From an uncultured Actinomycetes bacterium (GTDB taxonomy: Bacteria; Actinomycetota; Acidimicrobiia; Acidimicrobiales; Ilumatobacteraceae), in NCBI GenBank assembly GCA_937876415.1, contig CALEHE010000340.1, positions 1-48,673 of the forward strand: DNA of 48,673 nt, in the 5' to 3' direction. Position numbers and translations under genes: made by a program. Below, piece after piece: positions 30,305-39,072 of the stretch; position 1 is the first letter of the stretch, and every line of letters starts with the position of its first letter. The notes below the pieces were generated by a model. It made no database searches, had not been told where the DNA came from, and was given only the letters and a program-made list of their open reading frames with translations.

Positions 30305-31351
30305 CTAGTTTCCGATGTCGGGCCAGCGGCGCTTTTGACGGCGACGTAGTCCAGCGGTTCCCATTTCACGGCGTTCTGATAACGCCCACTGACGACGCCA
30401 ACCTGTGTACTCAGGCCCAGTCAATTTCGTGCTTTCGTTGCGGGCCGAACGTTGACGTGCCGTCCAAAAATCAGTGAGTGATTCATCGCCGAGTTCGGCG
30501 ACTTCCGCTTCAATGCGGGCTGAGAACCGGCGGGTGTTCTCGTCTTCAAGGGCACGCATAGGCGCACCGAAAACAACTTTCGTTGTTCCGATCTTGGGAC
30601 GCTTCATACCCTTGCCAAAGAGAGCGCCGGTTCCGTCAATAAAGACGGGGACAACAGCTGCGCCAGTGCGAGCAGACAAATACGCGGCACCGCCCTTGAA
30701 ATCTTGACCCCAACCGTCGGGCGAGCGGCCGCCTTCGGGATAGATCATCAAACTCCAGCCGTCATCGATGAGTTCTTTGATCATGTCTGAAGATTTACGA
30801 CCAGTAACTTCGCGATCAATCGGGATTGCGTTGAGCGCCAAGGCCGCCATGGTTGCTTTCCAGCGCTTGTCAAAAAAATAGTCAGCAGCTGCCGCGACAA
30901 CCAGTTTTGAACGCCACGGTTCAGGAACTGCGACTGCCATGACTGCCGTATCAAGATGTGAATGGTGATTCGGCGTAAAGATCAAGGGTGGGGGATCTTT
31001 GAGTTGTGCGAGATCGTGCAAGCGGTCGACGCCGTACACCTTGGGACTAGCTAATCCTCGAACAGCAAGACGAATGGGTCCATTAACGAGACCCTTACGT
31101 ACAAACTTGGCCGATGAGCGACGCGCCCAATCAGTGTCGTAGTCAGCGCCAAGCGTTGGCTTGTCTTCTGGTACTTCTACACCGAGCGGAATCGTCGGGG
31201 GTAAGTACGGAAAGCCTTTGCGGTAGGTGCGCTTGGCGATGGGGTGAGTGATGCGTTCAACTAACTCGCCAATGCGCGCGGCTTTGGCGAGGTTGCTTGG
31301 TTTCCAGGGTGCGTCGTCGCGGGCCATTACAAATTCCGAATCACGAAACAT
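30305..31351 (-). CDS. PlsC-type glycerolipid acyltransferase
   Basis: This is a 348-residue membrane-associated lysophospholipid acyltransferase-superfamily protein. The catalytic motif is TPNHHSHLD (NHx4D) around residue 128. Further motifs are the substrate-binding IYPEGGRSPDG and, near the end of the domain, PVFIDGTGALF. An N-terminal ~100-residue and a basic C-terminal extension flank the domain. It is the last gene of a four-gene leftward operon. Its ATG at 31351 overlaps the LarA-like gene by 11 bases, with ATG 31327 an alternative start. The context suggests it esterifies an acyl or alkyl glycerolipid made by the upstream enzymes. The exact acceptor is unknown. Confidence 0.88.
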   Translation of the reverse strand: MFRDSEFVMARDDAPWKPSNLAKAARIGELVERITHPIAKRTYRKGFPYLPPTIPLGVEVPEDKPTLGADYDTDWARRSSAKFVRKGLVNGPIRLAVRGLASPKVYGVDRLHDLAQLKDPPPLIFTPNHHSHLDTAVMAVAVPEPWRSKLVVAAAADYFFDKRWKATMAALALNAIPIDREVTGRKSSDMIKELIDDGWSLMIYPEGGRSPDGWGQDFKGGAAYLSARTGAAVVPVFIDGTGALFGKGMKRPKIGTTKVVFGAPMRALEDENTRRFSARIEAEVAELGDESLTDFWTARQRSARNESTKLTGPEYTGWRRQWALSERREMGTAGLRRRQKRRWPDIGN

Positions 31352-32927
31352 CGGCCACCATCAAAGGCGGCGCATGAAGGTGAGTAATGGTTGGTGCACG
31401 ACCAACGACGTCGCTGGCAATTTCTAAGGCGTCGTCCATTGTTGAAGCAGGAACAAAACCGAGGCGGCGAACAGTCTTGGGGTCGCCACCAACAATGATG
31501 ATGCGACTGCAATGTTGCAATGCGTGACTGCCCCAGTACCACATGTAGAAGGGGTGAACTCCGTGATAGGCGTAGGTGGTGCGGTAGAGATGCTTGTACC
31601 ACTCGTCTTCGGCGTACTGCTTTTCCCACTTCTGTGACATCACATGCGGATCGGTTGTGTCGGCAAGGACTTGTTCAAAGAAATCGATGTACGAAGGATG
31701 ATGAACTGGGTGGAAATCGGGTTGTGTTGGGTGAGTCATGATGATGACTCCACCTTCACGGACAAGCGGCATTCCCTTGTACATGTTGAAGTAGTAACCA
31801 AGGCCCATGCACATCACCAAGATGGGGTTCAGAATTGAGTGCACGTTGTACGGGCTGATGTAGGGGATGCCCAACGTCAAAATGTCGGTTTGACCCTTCA
31901 CTTCAACGAGTTGTTGTTTGTACACATGCTCGGTGGTGATGCGGTGAACCGCTTCAACATCGCCGGCCTGAACGCTGGTCATCTGGTGCGGGGCTTCAAT
32001 TGAATGGAAGATTTTGCGGGCCAAACGAGTTGGTGTTCGATTCAATGCTTTCGTTGAAGCCAAGAAAGTCATGCGATCTGAAGGCTTCCATTCCCATTCG
32101 CGCTTGGCCAAGAAGCCAAACGGTGACGGGAAAGTGTCGGTATTGAGAGTGGTCTCAATCTGGAAAACCTTGACGCCACTGTCAAGAAGCACCTTGCCCA
32201 TGCGCCAGTTGCTCTTATGCAATTCACTGCGATGTTGATCCATGAAACTGCGGGAATGAATCATGGTCTCAGGATTGTGGTGGTGACGTAACGACTTGTA
32301 AGACGACAAGCCAGTAGCCGTGCTCTTCCAACCACCGTCCATGGCCACGAGGTTGATGTTGACATACACAAGCAAGTCGCTTTCGGCGGCCCGCTTATTG
32401 ATCTCGACATCTTCGCCGTGAGGAGTCGTGCCGAGGTACGACAAGTTGTCGGGATCTTCGGCGTCATGTTGGTACAGCGTTCCGCGAGGTGCGAATGCGT
32501 CATACACGCGGTCGCCAACGGCATGGCGTAATTCGGCTTCGGTCATGCGGCGGTGAAGTGCAAGCGCAGAAATGATGTGCACATCATCAACGCCGGCTTC
32601 TGCAGCCATGTCAAGTACTGCCTCTATAACTCGTTGACGAATGTCGGGACGCTGCATTTTCGGAAGCGGCAAACTGACATCGTCAAAGGCGATAGTGAGC
32701 TTCATTCCCGGGAACAATTGCTCGGGCAACGGATCTTGCTCGATGGGGTTGAGTAATGCATGACGAATCGCACCATCAACATCTTCAATTGCAGGCAATG
32801 GTTCTGGCGCGTAGATCACGCGACTGCGACCAGCGGGGAGCTTCTCTAATGAGAAGTTTTCGCCACGCCAAAAAAGAATGGGGGGAGTCGACTTATCGAC
32901 TTCAAGGACAAATCCGGGACGGGGCAT
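31341..32927 (-). CDS. LarA-like DUF2088 protein, function unknown
   Basis: This 528-residue protein resembles the nickel-pincer racemase LarA family (DUF2088), but is longer and divergent. Recognisable elements are FDDVSLPLP (residues ~81-89, where LarA has D-x-x-R), His125 in ALALHRRMTEAEL, and Lys201 in MDGGWKSTATG at the position of the cofactor-binding lysine. The histidine expected ten residues before that lysine is absent, so the activity may differ. No larB, larC or larE is in the window. The gene shares its ends with its neighbours: the start base is the last base of the dehydrogenase stop, and the stop lies inside the PlsC start. It may act on a hydroxylated lipid intermediate. Confidence 0.75.
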   Translation of the reverse strand: MPRPGFVLEVDKSTPPILFWRGENFSLEKLPAGRSRVIYAPEPLPAIEDVDGAIRHALLNPIEQDPLPEQLFPGMKLTIAFDDVSLPLPKMQRPDIRQRVIEAVLDMAAEAGVDDVHIISALALHRRMTEAELRHAVGDRVYDAFAPRGTLYQHDAEDPDNLSYLGTTPHGEDVEINKRAAESDLLVYVNINLVAMDGGWKSTATGLSSYKSLRHHHNPETMIHSRSFMDQHRSELHKSNWRMGKVLLDSGVKVFQIETTLNTDTFPSPFGFLAKREWEWKPSDRMTFLASTKALNRTPTRLARKIFHSIEAPHQMTSVQAGDVEAVHRITTEHVYKQQLVEVKGQTDILTLGIPYISPYNVHSILNPILVMCMGLGYYFNMYKGMPLVREGGVIIMTHPTQPDFHPVHHPSYIDFFEQVLADTTDPHVMSQKWEKQYAEDEWYKHLYRTTYAYHGVHPFYMWYWGSHALQHCSRIIIVGGDPKTVRRLGFVPASTMDDALEIASDVVGRAPTITHLHAPPLMVADVS

Positions 32928-34150
32928 TAGTTTGTCTCCTTCTTGTTACGAGCGTCAGACGCACGTAAGTCGAACACGATCTTGACTGCACCACGACGAC
33001 CGGCACCGGCGGCGTGGGCAAGGGCATTTTGATAATCGTCTAAGCGATACGTCGCCGAGACAAGGCGGTTGAGTTGGCAATCGGCAGCAGTTTCAATCGC
33101 GAGATCGAAAGTGTGACGCTTGGTTCCATCAGGCATTGATTCGGTTCCGTAGGTGTATGCGCCAATGAGGGCGGTCTCGCGATGCCACAATCCGGTGAGG
33201 TCGAGCGAAACAACCGCTGGCATACCAAGCAAAACAACGCGACCACGAGGACGTGTGAACTTCAGACAATCCATGATGCTGTCTGATGAACCAACTGCGT
33301 CAATGGTCGCATGACATCCGCCCGACAAATAGTCGCCAACAATGTGGCCGCCCGATTCGCGTCGTACTGCACGTGCTAGTTCGGCGGCCGGAACAACCAC
33401 ATCGGCTCCGAGTGAGCGAGCGAATGCTTGTTGATGGGGATAGCGAGCCCCAACAATGATGCGTACTTGTGGAACGTAACGACGCAGGCCAGCAATAGCG
33501 CATAGTCCCATAGAACCTGCACCGAGTACAGCAACGATTGGTGTTTCACCCCGTTGAATTGCTGCTTGCACAGCGGGCCACGTCGCAAGTGCCGCGTGAA
33601 TTCCGCCAGCTGCTGGTTCGACGAGTACTGCTTGCTCATCGGACATGCTGTCGGGTACTTCATGAAGTTGGCTGTCGTGAGCGATGAGTTCGGTTGCCCA
33701 ACCTCCGCCAGTTGATGAACAAAATCCAGTTTGAATGCCGGGTTCAAGGTGTCCGCCAACAAGATGGGCGTAGTCATCGCCGTCGCCAGGTGCTGCGCCT
33801 TCGAAAGGTAACGGTAAACCTCGACAGGCATGACCGAGTACGGGTTCAAGAACAACACGTCGGCCGTCATCGCAATCGGCGACAACTTCGTGACCCGGAA
33901 CGAACGGGAAAGACACCCAGTCATCGAAGTATGTCGAGGCATGACCTTCAACTAATGAAAGGTCACTCCCACAAATACCGGTGAGTCGCGGCTGAATGCG
34001 GTGCCAACCTTCGGCGTTGGGCATCGTCGGTGCAGATTCGTTGACCAATGACAATGGTCCAAACTTGGCGGCACCGATCGTGCTCACTGGACTCATCAAA
34101 CGAGCAACCGCAAACTTGGCGGTCTTGCGGGAAATCTTGAGTGCTTTCAT
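32927..34150 (-). CDS. Zinc-type medium-chain alcohol dehydrogenase-like protein
   Basis: This 407-residue protein belongs to the medium-chain dehydrogenase family. Catalytic-zinc ligands are plausible: Cys60 in LTGICGSDLS and His87-Glu88 in VPGHEVV. The Rossmann motif is VLGAGSMGLCAI. The four-cysteine structural-zinc lobe is not seen, since the region EPVLGHACRGLPLPFEG has only one cysteine. I chose ATG 34150, 13 bases after the upstream stop, because the frame open to 34222 would overlap the preceding gene by 59 bases. It probably interconverts an alcohol and aldehyde or ketone in the same lipid pathway. Confidence 0.85.
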   Translation of the reverse strand: MKALKISRKTAKFAVARLMSPVSTIGAAKFGPLSLVNESAPTMPNAEGWHRIQPRLTGICGSDLSLVEGHASTYFDDWVSFPFVPGHEVVADCDDGRRVVLEPVLGHACRGLPLPFEGAAPGDGDDYAHLVGGHLEPGIQTGFCSSTGGGWATELIAHDSQLHEVPDSMSDEQAVLVEPAAGGIHAALATWPAVQAAIQRGETPIVAVLGAGSMGLCAIAGLRRYVPQVRIIVGARYPHQQAFARSLGADVVVPAAELARAVRRESGGHIVGDYLSGGCHATIDAVGSSDSIMDCLKFTRPRGRVVLLGMPAVVSLDLTGLWHRETALIGAYTYGTESMPDGTKRHTFDLAIETAADCQLNRLVSATYRLDDYQNALAHAAGAGRRGAVKIVFDLRASDARNKKETN

Positions 34151-34163
34151 TTGAACGACCAAA

Positions 34164-36548
34164 TCATTGGAACGACCGATACGAACTGCGTCCATTACGA
34201 ACCGAGAAACGTTTTTGTTCACGTTCAGACATCATGGGACCAAGTGGAAGTCGGGGACGAGGTCCACCTGGCGACTTTTCCCAGTTCTCAACGAGCCACC
34301 CGCGTTTGCGAGCGATGGCTGCAAGCCGTGTTTCTGGGTTCACAGCAACCGGGAACCCCACTGCTTCAAGCATCGGAAGGTCGCTACTTGAGTCGGCATA
34401 GGCAATTGACTCTTCGAGTCTGAGCCCTTCGGCAGCGCAATAGTCGGCCAACACTTGGGAGCGTGTTTCGCCTGTAGGCGGAACTTTGGCGAGTTCGCCT
34501 GAATACGTTCCATCGGGGCGAATCGTCATTTCGGCGGCGACGATTTCATCGAAGAGTGGTCGCAGACCTTCGACGGCGAAGCTCATGGCGCCGGTAATCA
34601 AGATTGTGCGGTGACCAAGTGCGCGGTGCTCGCGAACACGACGAAGGCCGGCTGGGAAACTCTTGGTCATGATGAGTTGTGCGAGAAGTTCGCGTGAGTC
34701 TTCTTCGATTTGTTCAACCGGAGCATCTTCGTAACGGCGATAGAAGTAACGCAAGAAGTCAGATCGATCTTTGCGATCCATCGACAACAAGTTGGGTGCT
34801 TCCCTCATTGTGCGCAAGACATAACGCACCCGTTCGGGCGAATTGAGTCGACGTGTCGCAAGCCATGAATAGCTCTCAACCACGTTGCTTGAGATCAGCG
34901 TGTTCTCAAGGTCGAAGGCAGCGACGTGGCGTTTGGGATCAAGGATCTGCTTGCGCAGGCGATCACTGCGGTCAAGTGTGCTCTTGCCTGGTGTTGTCTT
35001 GACTCGGCTATGCAAGACAATCGACGGAAGGTGAATGGTCGAGATGTAGGTGGGCCAATGAACAACTCGAGGATCAAGGCAAAAAGTCGCGCGATCATGC
35101 GCATCAAGTTGATCATTGATTGCGAGAAGATTGTCGACTGAATAAATGGCCTCGCACTCGGTGTACAGGCCGTACAGTTCAACGTATTCAAGTGCTCTTT
35201 CGATCTCACTGCGCTTATCTTCGAGTTTGGCTGACCAATTCGCTTGGGTGCCGCGCAACGGCAGTGCCTGTAAAACCTTTTCACTCTTGGTGATTAACGA
35301 CTGAGCGCGGTTGAGTTGCTTCTCGACTTTTCCACGACCCGGGAATTTCCAGTCGGCAACAACGATGGGTTGACCTTCAGAGTCGTAGATGGGGTGTTCA
35401 GTGAACCAATCGCGAACATTGTCAACGAGAGTTCGGTACTTCAGCGGATTAGTTGAACCGCTGGCGACTTGAGTGATGTGCGGTGCATCTTTTGGACCAA
35501 GGGCTGCCACCGCAATGATTGCAGCAACCACAATGTCAACCGGAATAACGTCAACAGTTCCTTCTGGTACTCCAGGGAATTGATCAAGTAAGCCACGGGC
35601 ATACGAGATGATGACCGGTTCGGCCATACGGAAACCACGAATCCAACCCGGTGATGGTTCGGCCAATGCAGATTCAATAATTGAAGGTCGCACAATGCTG
35701 ACGGGCACAGAACCTTTGGTTTCGTGAAGTGCTTGTTCGCCTAATGCCTTGGTGAACGCATAGGCGTCGGGCCAGCCGACACTTGCGGCGCGTGAACGAC
35801 CCGCTTCAACGAGTTGGTCTTTTACCCATCGTTCACGGTTTTGCTCAGTCTTTTCGGCGAGAGCGGGTGCACCGGCGGCACCAAGTTCTGACCGCGCAGC
35901 AACACGAAATTTCTGCAATTGATCGGGCATACGACTGGCTGCTTCGGCGTCGCCATGTAAACGACGTGCTGCACTGACTTCGGTTTTCCAGTTGAGCCCA
36001 ATATCAAATGGTCCAGCACTTACTAGTTGTTCTGGTGCAGTGCCGCGCCGGTTGCCAGCGACGTAACACGTACTCACTGCAACGAGGTGCGGAAAAGTTC
36101 CATCTGTTCGCGGACCAACACGATTGACTAATTCAGCGATTCGCATCGGTCCGAGCAAGTTGACTTCGACAGCGCTGTCGAGCGGAGAGTCAAATGAAAC
36201 ACTTGCAGCCGAGTGGATAATGGTGTCGCATGAGGCAAACGTTTTGGCATCTTCTTCTGACAATCCAAGTCCGTCAGTTCCGACGTCGCCAGCGACAACG
36301 CTGACACGACGTTTCATCGTGGCATCGAATTCGGGTCCAAGAGCAGCACGCAGGCGATCAAATGCATCATTCTTGAAAATCTCTCGTCGCACGCGCTCGG
36401 CCGCGGCAGTACGGCGACCGTTACGAACCAGTAGCACGACTTCGCAATCAGGAACACTGAACAGCAAACGCTCAACGAGAGCGGTGCCCACAAAACCGGT
36501 CGCCCCGGTGACTGCGATGCGTTTGCCGCGAAGATTTTCGGAAATCAC
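34164..36548 (-). CDS. Acyl-CoA reductase-like SDR fused to an HAD-IB domain
   Basis: This 794-residue two-part enzyme begins with an extended SDR domain of the male-sterility/fatty acyl-CoA reductase type (~1-400): the NADPH motif TGATGFVGTALVE and catalytic Tyr263-x3-Lys267 in YAFTK. A linker (~400-540) precedes an HAD-IB-like domain (~541-760) with motif I AFDLENTL (Asp546, but Glu548 where Asp is usual), motif II TGAMSF and motif III AYADSSSDLPMLEAVG. It probably reduces a fatty acyl-thioester to an aldehyde or alcohol. The HAD role is unknown. The start is GTG 36548, placed six bases after a TATAAC box. It is the first gene of the TetR-controlled operon. Confidence 0.87.
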   Translation of the reverse strand: MISENLRGKRIAVTGATGFVGTALVERLLFSVPDCEVVLLVRNGRRTAAAERVRREIFKNDAFDRLRAALGPEFDATMKRRVSVVAGDVGTDGLGLSEEDAKTFASCDTIIHSAASVSFDSPLDSAVEVNLLGPMRIAELVNRVGPRTDGTFPHLVAVSTCYVAGNRRGTAPEQLVSAGPFDIGLNWKTEVSAARRLHGDAEAASRMPDQLQKFRVAARSELGAAGAPALAEKTEQNRERWVKDQLVEAGRSRAASVGWPDAYAFTKALGEQALHETKGSVPVSIVRPSIIESALAEPSPGWIRGFRMAEPVIISYARGLLDQFPGVPEGTVDVIPVDIVVAAIIAVAALGPKDAPHITQVASGSTNPLKYRTLVDNVRDWFTEHPIYDSEGQPIVVADWKFPGRGKVEKQLNRAQSLITKSEKVLQALPLRGTQANWSAKLEDKRSEIERALEYVELYGLYTECEAIYSVDNLLAINDQLDAHDRATFCLDPRVVHWPTYISTIHLPSIVLHSRVKTTPGKSTLDRSDRLRKQILDPKRHVAAFDLENTLISSNVVESYSWLATRRLNSPERVRYVLRTMREAPNLLSMDRKDRSDFLRYFYRRYEDAPVEQIEEDSRELLAQLIMTKSFPAGLRRVREHRALGHRTILITGAMSFAVEGLRPLFDEIVAAEMTIRPDGTYSGELAKVPPTGETRSQVLADYCAAEGLRLEESIAYADSSSDLPMLEAVGFPVAVNPETRLAAIARKRGWLVENWEKSPGGPRPRLPLGPMMSEREQKRFSVRNGRSSYRSFQ

Positions 36549-36554
36549 AGTTCA

Positions 36555-36588
36555 GTTATAACACGGTTCTCTACCAATTGGTAGAGAA
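36555..36588 (-). promoter_or_regulatory. Promoter and 22-base palindromic TetR operator of the lipid operon
   Basis: On the minus strand TATAAC (36555-36560) stands six bases before the GTG at 36548. The bases 36567-36588 are a perfect 22-base palindrome (half site TTCTCTACCAA). It covers the -35 region of the operon promoter and lies 49 bases before the divergent TetR start. This is the expected arrangement for TetR-family repression and autoregulation. Confidence 0.75.
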
Positions 36589-36637
36589 ATCTGAGAAAAT
36601 CGGGATTCTTGGTCGAATGGGCTGGTAGGAATAGGGA

Positions 36638-37261
36638 ATGGCCAGTCGCCCAGTGAGCCCAAATCGACGCGGAGATACCCGTGAACGCATCCTCGAGAGC
36701 GCCACGATTCTGTTCGGGACCAGGGGTTTTGATGCAGTCAGCCTCGATCACATTGCATCTGAAGTCGGGGTTGCTAAACAAACTTTGTTGTACTGGTTCG
36801 CTTCGAAAGATGAGCTCATGCAGGCAGTTCTCGCCAATATGGCGGGTGAGTTAACCGTTGTCGTTGAGGCGGCAATGCGGGCGGCACCTGATGATCCTCT
36901 TGATCGCCTCGAAGCCGTCGTCCACGCTGTCTTTCGGTCCGCGGTCCGTCGACCGGCTTTGCTGGGGTTATTGCGTGAGTTGAGTCGGCTACCCGATGGC
37001 GCAACTGGTTACATGACCGATCATTTACATCCGCTGGTTGATCGAGCGGTGAGTTGGATGCAATCAGAAATGGATCGAGGTCGACTCCGTCAAGGTAATC
37101 CGGCCATCATCGTGGCGATGGTGTACGCGACCGTGACCGGAATCGCGACCGAACCAGAAGCATTGCGCGTCGTGGGCTGGCAACAAGACATTGCTGGATT
37201 GCGCAATCTGCGCCATGAGATGACGCTCTTCTTGCGCGCGGCTTTAACGCCCAACTCGTAA
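36638..37261 (+). CDS. TetR-family transcriptional regulator
   Basis: This is a 207-residue homodimeric repressor-type protein. The N-terminal helix-turn-helix (~10-60) reads TRERILESATILFGTRGFDA, then VAKQTLLYWFASKDEL. The C-terminal all-helical ligand domain (~65-200) is unassigned. The ATG at 36638 has AGGA seven bases upstream. The gene is divergent from the acyl-CoA reductase operon, with a perfect 22-base palindrome between them, so it most likely represses that operon and itself until an acyl-CoA or similar lipid ligand binds. The ligand is inference. Confidence 0.92.
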   Translation: MASRPVSPNRRGDTRERILESATILFGTRGFDAVSLDHIASEVGVAKQTLLYWFASKDELMQAVLANMAGELTVVVEAAMRAAPDDPLDRLEAVVHAVFRSAVRRPALLGLLRELSRLPDGATGYMTDHLHPLVDRAVSWMQSEMDRGRLRQGNPAIIVAMVYATVTGIATEPEALRVVGWQQDIAGLRNLRHEMTLFLRAALTPNS

Positions 37262-38442: not shown

Positions 38443-39072
38443 ATGGCACGGTCACAGTCAAATAGTTCAGATCCCAAGTTTCTCACCCATCACGCTTTGC
38501 GAATTAAGGGCTTCTCCAAGAGCGACACCTTGTCCGAAATCGTGGCTCTTGATGTCGATGTCGTCGAGAAGCATTTACAGGATCTGCAGGCTGAAGAGAT
38601 GGCGATGTTCCGGGAGGCTCGTTCCTTGTGGCAGCTAACTCCCGCTGGTCGGGCTGCTCACCCCGAAGCCTTAGCCAAAGATGTTGCTGGTCTCGATCTC
38701 GCTGCATTGAAGCCGCACTACCACAACTTCCTCGAAATCAATGACACGTTTAAGCATCTGTGTGGCGACTGGCAATTGCGCGATGGAGCGCCCAACGATC
38801 ACTCTGATGACAAGTACGACCAAGAGATCATCAAGCGACTAGTAACTCTTCATACGGCTGCCGCGCCGGTGGTCTCGTCGATGGCAACAATCATCCCTCG
38901 CTTGTCGCCGTACGTGCCCCGACTTGATTCAACCTGCAAGTTGGTTGTGGGTGGCGCGAACAACATGTTTACGGGAGTCATGTGTGGGTCATTCCACGAT
39001 GTTTGGATGGAGCTTCACGAAGATCTCATTTTGTCCCAAGGCATCGATCGTGCCGCTGAGGGTTCCTTCTAA
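38443..39072 (+). CDS. Uncharacterised protein with a winged-helix-like N-terminus
   Basis: I do not recognise a characterised family. The 209-residue protein starts with a helix-turn-helix-like region (~12-75; ALRIKGFSKSDTLSEIVALD, then LWQLTPAGRAAH, as in MarR-like winged helices). The remainder is mostly helical and polar, with HYHNFLEINDTFKHLCGDWQ and FHDVWMELHEDLI. A DNA-binding role is possible but unproven. A TAGATT box lies nine bases before the ATG. Its stop overlaps the dapA start, so it is probably the first gene of the dapA-RNase J transcript. Confidence 0.8.
   Translation: MARSQSNSSDPKFLTHHALRIKGFSKSDTLSEIVALDVDVVEKHLQDLQAEEMAMFREARSLWQLTPAGRAAHPEALAKDVAGLDLAALKPHYHNFLEINDTFKHLCGDWQLRDGAPNDHSDDKYDQEIIKRLVTLHTAAAPVVSSMATIIPRLSPYVPRLDSTCKLVVGGANNMFTGVMCGSFHDVWMELHEDLILSQGIDRAAEGSF

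Follow-up and report, generated by a model that had tools for sequence, protein, structure and literature searches.

A conserved actinobacterial operon joining a fatty acyl-CoA reductase to a LarA-like protein points to an undescribed lipid pathway

Contig CALEHE010000340.1 (GCA_937876415.1) from an uncultured member of the Ilumatobacteraceae contains an operon of four genes with a divergent TetR-family regulator, which encodes a fatty acyl-CoA reductase fused to a HAD domain (FAR-HAD), a medium-chain dehydrogenase (MDR), a LarA-like protein (LarAH) and a PlsC-type acyltransferase. Genome comparisons confirm that the four genes and TetR represent one co-conserved and, as indicated by a shared putative operator, co-regulated unit found across many actinobacterial lineages. 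The operon points to an undescribed lipid pathway, for which our best guess of a product is an acylated lipid of the alkyl (ether) or diol type. The window is the whole stretch analysed (48,673 nucleotides), and the host draft genome comprises 2.4 Mb in 348 contigs (92.6% complete), with Acidimicrobiia as its closest relatives. All five genes were recovered at the positions given below, with the order FAR-HAD, MDR, LarAH, PlsC on the minus strand.

36638-37261, plus strand: TetR-family regulator (TetR_N, E 2.3e-13), divergent from the operon
36567-36588: putative operator, a perfect palindrome of 22 bp, TTCTCTACCAATTGGTAGAGAA, 19-40 bp before FAR-HAD begins
34164-36548, minus strand: FAR-HAD fusion, with FAR at residues ~1-514 and a putative HAD-IB phosphatase domain at residues ~540-753
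32927-34150, minus strand: MDR, a Zn-dependent, sorbitol/ketose-reductase-like medium-chain dehydrogenase (start corrected from 34222)
31341-32927, minus strand: LarAH14/15/16-family protein (NF052592), a predicted nickel-pincer-nucleotide (NPN) enzyme with a single catalytic His
30305-31351, minus strand: PlsC/AGPAT-type acyltransferase (PF01553, E 1.5e-17)

Family searches bear out each of these assignments. A first-pass annotation of this DNA had read the operon genes in the same order, following each other with overlaps or tiny gaps. One start was corrected: the MDR gene probably begins at 34150, because its homologues begin at MKALK..., and this leaves a 13-bp gap after the FAR-HAD stop instead of a 59-bp overlap. 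The other operon junctions are overlaps of 1 and 11 bp.

Conservation of the operon was surveyed in 80 Acidimicrobiia-type loci retrieved with the LarAH protein, with the partner counts limited to loci with enough contig. FAR lies upstream of LarAH on the same strand in 60/60 loci and PlsC downstream in 72/72, whereas MDR is found between FAR and LarAH in 51 of 60 and a divergent TetR gene in 48 of 58. Another 13 loci belong mostly to other actinobacterial families and encode LarAH proteins of 54-66% identity; FAR and MDR adjoin LarAH in all 13 and PlsC does so in 8 of 12. At 31-41% identity, the operon partners were present in 0 of 14 LarAH loci. The LarAH family occurs in 109 of 396 genomes of the phylum, and no LarAH14 match was found in the plasmids searched. 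Among 296 genomes of the class, FAR-HAD is present in 75 of the 76 genomes with LarAH and in none of the 220 others, an association whose significance is inflated by kinship. The same families and orders hold both joint carriers and joint non-carriers of FAR and LarAH, so that the pair has probably been gained or lost together on more than one occasion. The pairwise identities of the four operon proteins correlate (r 0.70-0.88), as shared descent alone also predicts. Because the gene order is kept in essentially all relatives and FAR and LarAH co-occur so closely, the arrangement cannot be ascribed to chance. Thus, the synteny survey in relatives, which the first-pass annotation had proposed as a check, was passed decisively.

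Loci whose operon lacks MDR come mostly from the Sva0996-type group. Two chromosomes of this type have the gene relocated, with a 57-58% identical copy found elsewhere next to an Ldh_2-type dehydrogenase and methylmalonyl-CoA-type genes, and on this ground the idea that MDR is dispensable was rejected. The operon core (FAR-HAD, MDR and LarAH) is also present in a family designated f25, where PlsY adjoins FAR-HAD in one locus (L133). In two f25 loci a protoglobin gene separates MDR from LarAH within the cluster (L131, 11670-12323, minus strand; L132, 10807-11394, minus strand). Clustering of open reading frames for further conserved neighbours returned only Ddl, gltD, DapA and LysM, in close relatives, which we judged to be background synteny. 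A 209-aa protein without a Pfam match (38443-39072, plus strand) is kept in close relatives, at 68-95% identity, with Ddl and DapA on either side.

Control of the operon by TetR, proposed by the first-pass annotation, is well supported by comparison of the TetR-FAR intergenic regions, because the 22-bp palindrome is conserved there and its core is found nowhere else in the 2.08 Mb of retrieved loci. Of 56 intergenic regions, 52 hold an exact copy of the core, TACCANNTGGTA, and the remaining four differ from it by a single mismatch; shuffled intergenic regions almost never reach such similarity to it. No other exact match was found in the 2.08 Mb, save where two overlapping retrieved loci cover the same site, and the core is absent upstream of FAR in loci lacking TetR, except in contigs that end before the regulator gene. 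A promoter scan of the TetR-FAR intergenic region revealed no sigma-70-like site. The palindrome is therefore a putative operator of a self-regulating TetR, which would bind it and repress both itself and the operon until released by a lipid or acyl-CoA ligand; we infer repression rather than activation, as well as the nature of the releasing ligand.

FAR-HAD contains NAD_binding_4 (E 7.8e-59) and HAD (E 5.3e-24) domains within one open reading frame according to Pfam, with a Sterile domain detected below the cut-off only. Its FAR part (residues 2-514) has the fatty acyl-CoA reductase 7eoz as its best match in the PDB (E 1.2e-60), and the TGxTGFxG and YxxTK motifs are conserved in 83 relatives. 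By these motifs and the full-length match to 7eoz it qualifies as a predicted alcohol-forming fatty acyl-CoA reductase. The HAD part resembles HAD-IB proteins (best PDB match 3fvv) and has the nucleophile D546 as well as T550 and the motif IV residues D719 and D723 conserved in 83 relatives. HAD motif I (34899-34931, minus strand) reads mostly DLENT in the homologues, with Glu replacing the general-acid Asp of HAD phosphatases, a substitution that may alter or slow phosphatase activity. MDR has ADH_N/ADH_zinc_N domains, is closest in the PDB to ketose reductase/sorbitol dehydrogenase (1e3j, E 2.5e-15) and shows C84, H111, E112 and E202 at ≥97% in 110 sequences. In PlsC, the HX4D (H129...D134) and EGxR (E206-G207-x-R209) motifs are found at ≥97% in 102 sequences. 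The presence of FAR together with PlsC bears out the lipid-type chemistry that had been suggested for this operon.

LarAH has a Lar_N domain (E 2.1e-40) and scores 899.4 bits against the NCBIfam model NF052592 (LarAH_14_15_16), for which the curated whole-protein cut-off is 740 bits. Across 41 homologues D83, H125, H217, Y360 and H458 are invariant, and K201 is conserved at ≥90%. In alignment with Streptococcus LarA, D83 corresponds to the ribose-binding Asp (D73), K201 to the NPN-linking Lys (K195), H217 to the Ni-binding His (H211) and H125 to the catalytic His, while Y360 and H458 align with Y307 and H401. The 41-sequence alignment shows no conserved His at the position of H174 of the Lactobacillus plantarum lactate racemase, H125 being the equivalent of H108. 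The substrate-carboxylate Arg/Lys (Arg75 of LarA) is also absent from LarAH, where the segment reads FDDxSLPLP. Absence of the second catalytic His has been described for LarAH groups 14 and 15 (PMC12611868), and a LarAH14 protein from Frankia was inactive in seven tests of alpha-hydroxyacid activity (PMC7583248).

The AlphaFold2 model of LarAH (pLDDT 95.8) is closest to the single-His LarA proteins of Streptococcus plurextorum (9q2u/9q3k) and Blautia wexlerae (9q3j), which likewise have one catalytic His (Z 41.7 and 38.2). The best match was 9q3k, with 2.1 Å over 453 residues, compared to Z values of about 29-32 for the classical LarA structures 5huq, 6c1w and 9eia. Chains from outside the LarA family reached Z values of no more than about 6 and were disregarded. 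Unlike LarAH, the single-His enzymes have His306 where Pro359 is found here, and their Asn replacing His174 is not clearly in register with LarAH (alignment gap); their genes lie among carbohydrate genes (PMC12611868). With LarA/LarAH racemases and epimerases as a whole, LarAH shares the fold, the NPN-linking Lys, the Ni-binding His, one catalytic His and the ribose-binding Asp. It differs from them in the missing second His and carboxylate Arg and in its location outside hydroxyacid or sugar operons, and LarAH14/15/16 proteins have no assigned substrate.

Genes for cofactor synthesis accompany LarAH in the class. LarC is present in 69 of 76 LarAH genomes, and only four genomes without LarAH have it. 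In the host, LarC is cut by a contig end, another contig ends within LarE, leaving an N-terminal fragment (E 8e-6), and LarB was not seen in the draft genome; LarB adjoins LarC in a genome of the same genus (G252). LarC appears to be split in three genomes of families f6 and f85, the piece that matches the C-terminal domain preceding the N-terminal piece on one strand, ~1.5 kb apart (G563 C7:14386-17051, G629 C78:25257-27916 and G631 C28:111-2840). LarAH thus retains the NPN anchors and a single catalytic His but has neither the second His nor the Arg; its best structural match is a single-His LarA, and LarC tracks it. It is therefore probably an NPN enzyme, presumably loaded with this cofactor, and not a classical two-base alpha-hydroxyacid racemase. 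Its reaction more likely runs in one direction or is some other kind of NPN chemistry. The possible stereochemical change to a hydroxy intermediate, suggested by the first-pass annotation, is not upheld as a reaction of the LarA racemase type, since the second His and the Arg are missing and the Frankia relative showed no activity.

A family of divergent LarAH proteins (f29; L138, L139 and L152; 38-40% identity) adjoins a family III CoA-transferase and an AMP-binding acyl-CoA-ligase-like protein in 3/3 loci examined. Judged by these annotations, this neighbourhood is a second, different acyl-CoA-type context for relatives of LarAH14/15/16.

The interpretation we favour, held tentatively and at somewhat less than an even chance, is that the operon produces a fatty-alcohol-derived acylated (glycero)lipid, likeliest a 1-O-alkyl ether-type precursor, by a route that is independent of alkyl-dihydroxyacetone phosphate synthase (AGPS) and includes one NPN step of a new functional type. 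FAR would reduce a long-chain acyl-CoA or acyl-ACP (acyl carrier protein) to a fatty alcohol, which would be joined to a glycerol- or ketose-phosphate-type backbone. MDR would interconvert a ketone and a secondary alcohol on this backbone, LarAH14 would use NPN and a single acid/base His to move a hydride at the secondary carbinol, the fused HAD domain would remove the phosphate, and PlsC would acylate the free hydroxyl. Computation shows what the genes are, that their catalytic sites are intact, that they are conserved together with the operator and that LarC co-occurs with them, whereas we infer the reaction order and the product. In favour of this proposal, the FAR, Zn-MDR, PlsC and NPN-anchoring motifs are intact, as are most HAD motifs; the ketose-reductase-like MDR and the tracking of LarAH by LarC are, as a best guess, also consistent with it. 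Family f25, probably Rubrobacter, speaks for it too, as it carries the operon core, has PlsY adjoining FAR-HAD in one locus and shows no AGPS in the two genomes searched. Rubrobacterales are reportedly dominated by mixed ether/ester lipids, to judge from the title of a 2023 study by Sinninghe Damste, the abstract of which reportedly mentions a putative operon for 1-O-alkyl glycerol phosphate that may or may not be the LarAH operon.

The ether-lipid assignment leans, as a best guess by analogy, on the way in which FAR, HAD and PlsC mirror the elb operon (elbA-elbE) of Myxococcus xanthus. There, FAR and AGPAT-like domains are combined in ElbD, the HAD protein is ElbB, and ElbD-dependent ether-lipid synthesis is largely AGPS-independent (PMC9131029). 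The likeness of elb and MXAN_1674-1676 to the LarAH operon is one of domain content, which includes NAD(P)-dependent dehydrogenase-type proteins. The differences are that FAR is fused here to HAD but in ElbD to FadD-ACP-AGPAT, that MDR takes the place of the epimerase/dehydratase-type ElbE, and that an NPN-family enzyme is central. In the Pfam family search none of the operon proteins showed a FadD or ACP domain, and the multidomain composition of ElbD is thus not reproduced.

Several observations weigh against the proposed ether-type route. No ether-bond-forming enzyme was identified among the operon genes, and LarAH14 has no assigned role. The four loci without PlsC in the cluster all belong to family f25, which we take to be probably Rubrobacter. 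An AGPS homologue is encoded elsewhere in the host genome, although it does not track the operon, and we know of no lipid data for Acidimicrobiia.

The main rival, which we regard as rather unlikely, is a 2-hydroxyacyl or 1,2-diol pathway, in which LarAH14 would act at the C2 carbinol of a 2-hydroxyacyl chain, FAR would turn the 2-hydroxyacyl thioester into a 1,2-diol, MDR would work on the secondary alcohol, and PlsC would acylate the diol or a diol phosphate. Every active LarA enzyme in a published survey works at C2 of 2-hydroxyacids (PMC7583248), and the f29 relatives with their CoA-transferase and ligase-like neighbours also fit such a scheme. However, LarAH14 lacks the carboxylate-binding Arg/Lys and the second His, its Frankia member did not act on short 2-hydroxyacids, and the operon has no 2-hydroxylase. 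A role of the operon in the metabolism of fatty alcohols and wax esters or of storage lipids, to which LarAH14 would be peripheral, is improbable, although FAR and PlsC serve wax and storage lipids and wax ester synthase/diacylglycerol acyltransferase (WS/DGAT) genes are common in Ilumatobacter and lie near PlsC-HAD fusions in marine Actinomycetota (PMC10351704). Such clusters, for example the Rhodococcus atf9 region, resemble the operon in combining PlsC with a HAD-type phosphatase in a lipid context, but their HAD domain is fused to PlsC and not to FAR. WS/DGAT is neither within nor adjoining the operon at the host locus, and wax synthesis requires neither an NPN enzyme nor an MDR of the ketose-reductase type, in spite of which FAR and LarAH are almost always found together. 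Among the products originally suggested, the ether-type lipid is now favoured, whereas the wax ester is the least supported, with no wax synthase in the operon.

A conventional ether pathway, in which FAR feeds fatty alcohol to the AGPS of a glpD-AGPS-glpK operon and MDR is the alkyl-dihydroxyacetone phosphate (alkyl-DHAP) reductase, is a still less probable explanation. The host does encode an AGPS homologue that carries an SHHHGVG motif and has alkyl-DHAP synthase as its closest PDB entry (E 1.3e-52), located in the order glpD, AGPS homologue, small membrane protein, glpK (G000 contig C185:3611-8804, locus L194), and this cluster is possibly an alkyl-DHAP ether-lipid route separate from the LarAH operon. 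AGPS is present in 51 of 76 operon genomes and in 69 of 220 without the operon. The 25 AGPS-less operon genomes include the single-contig genomes G031, G113 and G080, in which AGPS had no match. Two f25 genomes searched likewise have no AGPS, and no FAD-oxidase protein there carries the AGPS HHH motif. An AGPS-linked pathway as the basis of the operon was rejected, since the presence of AGPS does not track it; LarAH14 would also be left unexplained. For the same reason, an AGPS-independent alkyl-lipid route is favoured. Finally, the genes may be neighbours by history only, with LarAH14 an unrelated passenger or a non-NPN protein. Group 14/15 proteins do lack canonical catalytic residues and have shown no activity so far, but this explanation was already disfavoured and is now very improbable in view of the FAR-LarAH co-occurrence, the absence of both from certain genera within the same family and order, the relocated MDR that is still a close orthologue, the conserved NPN-anchoring Lys and Ni-binding His, and the co-occurring LarC.

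Overall, the observation made in the first-pass annotation is confirmed and its interpretation partly supported, including the statement that no described pathway has the same gene set, which holds for the open-licence literature searched. The search of that literature found no NPN/LarA (DUF2088) enzyme together with FAR or in a lipid operon, and no ether lipids from Acidimicrobiia. The case is now stronger than the letters alone allowed, since the conserved operator and the NPN-synthesis genes of this genome were out of sight of the first-pass annotation.

To our knowledge, the nickel-pincer cofactor has so far been found only in racemases and epimerases of 2-hydroxyacids and sugar acids. A more specific proposal, which is doubtful at present, is that NPN serves membrane-lipid synthesis through a single-His, non-racemizing step and that the operon represents an AGPS-independent alkyl-ether route in Actinomycetota such as Rubrobacter. 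Within a superfamily that uses a rare organometallic cofactor, the LarAH14/15/16 branch has a name but no function yet, and its fixed partners provide a first testable pathway context, with the conserved operator as a direct handle on regulation and the inducer. If confirmed, the pathway would bring lipids into NPN chemistry and could explain ether or other unusual lipids in actinobacteria lacking AGPS, including Rubrobacter and the abundant uncultured Acidimicrobiia.

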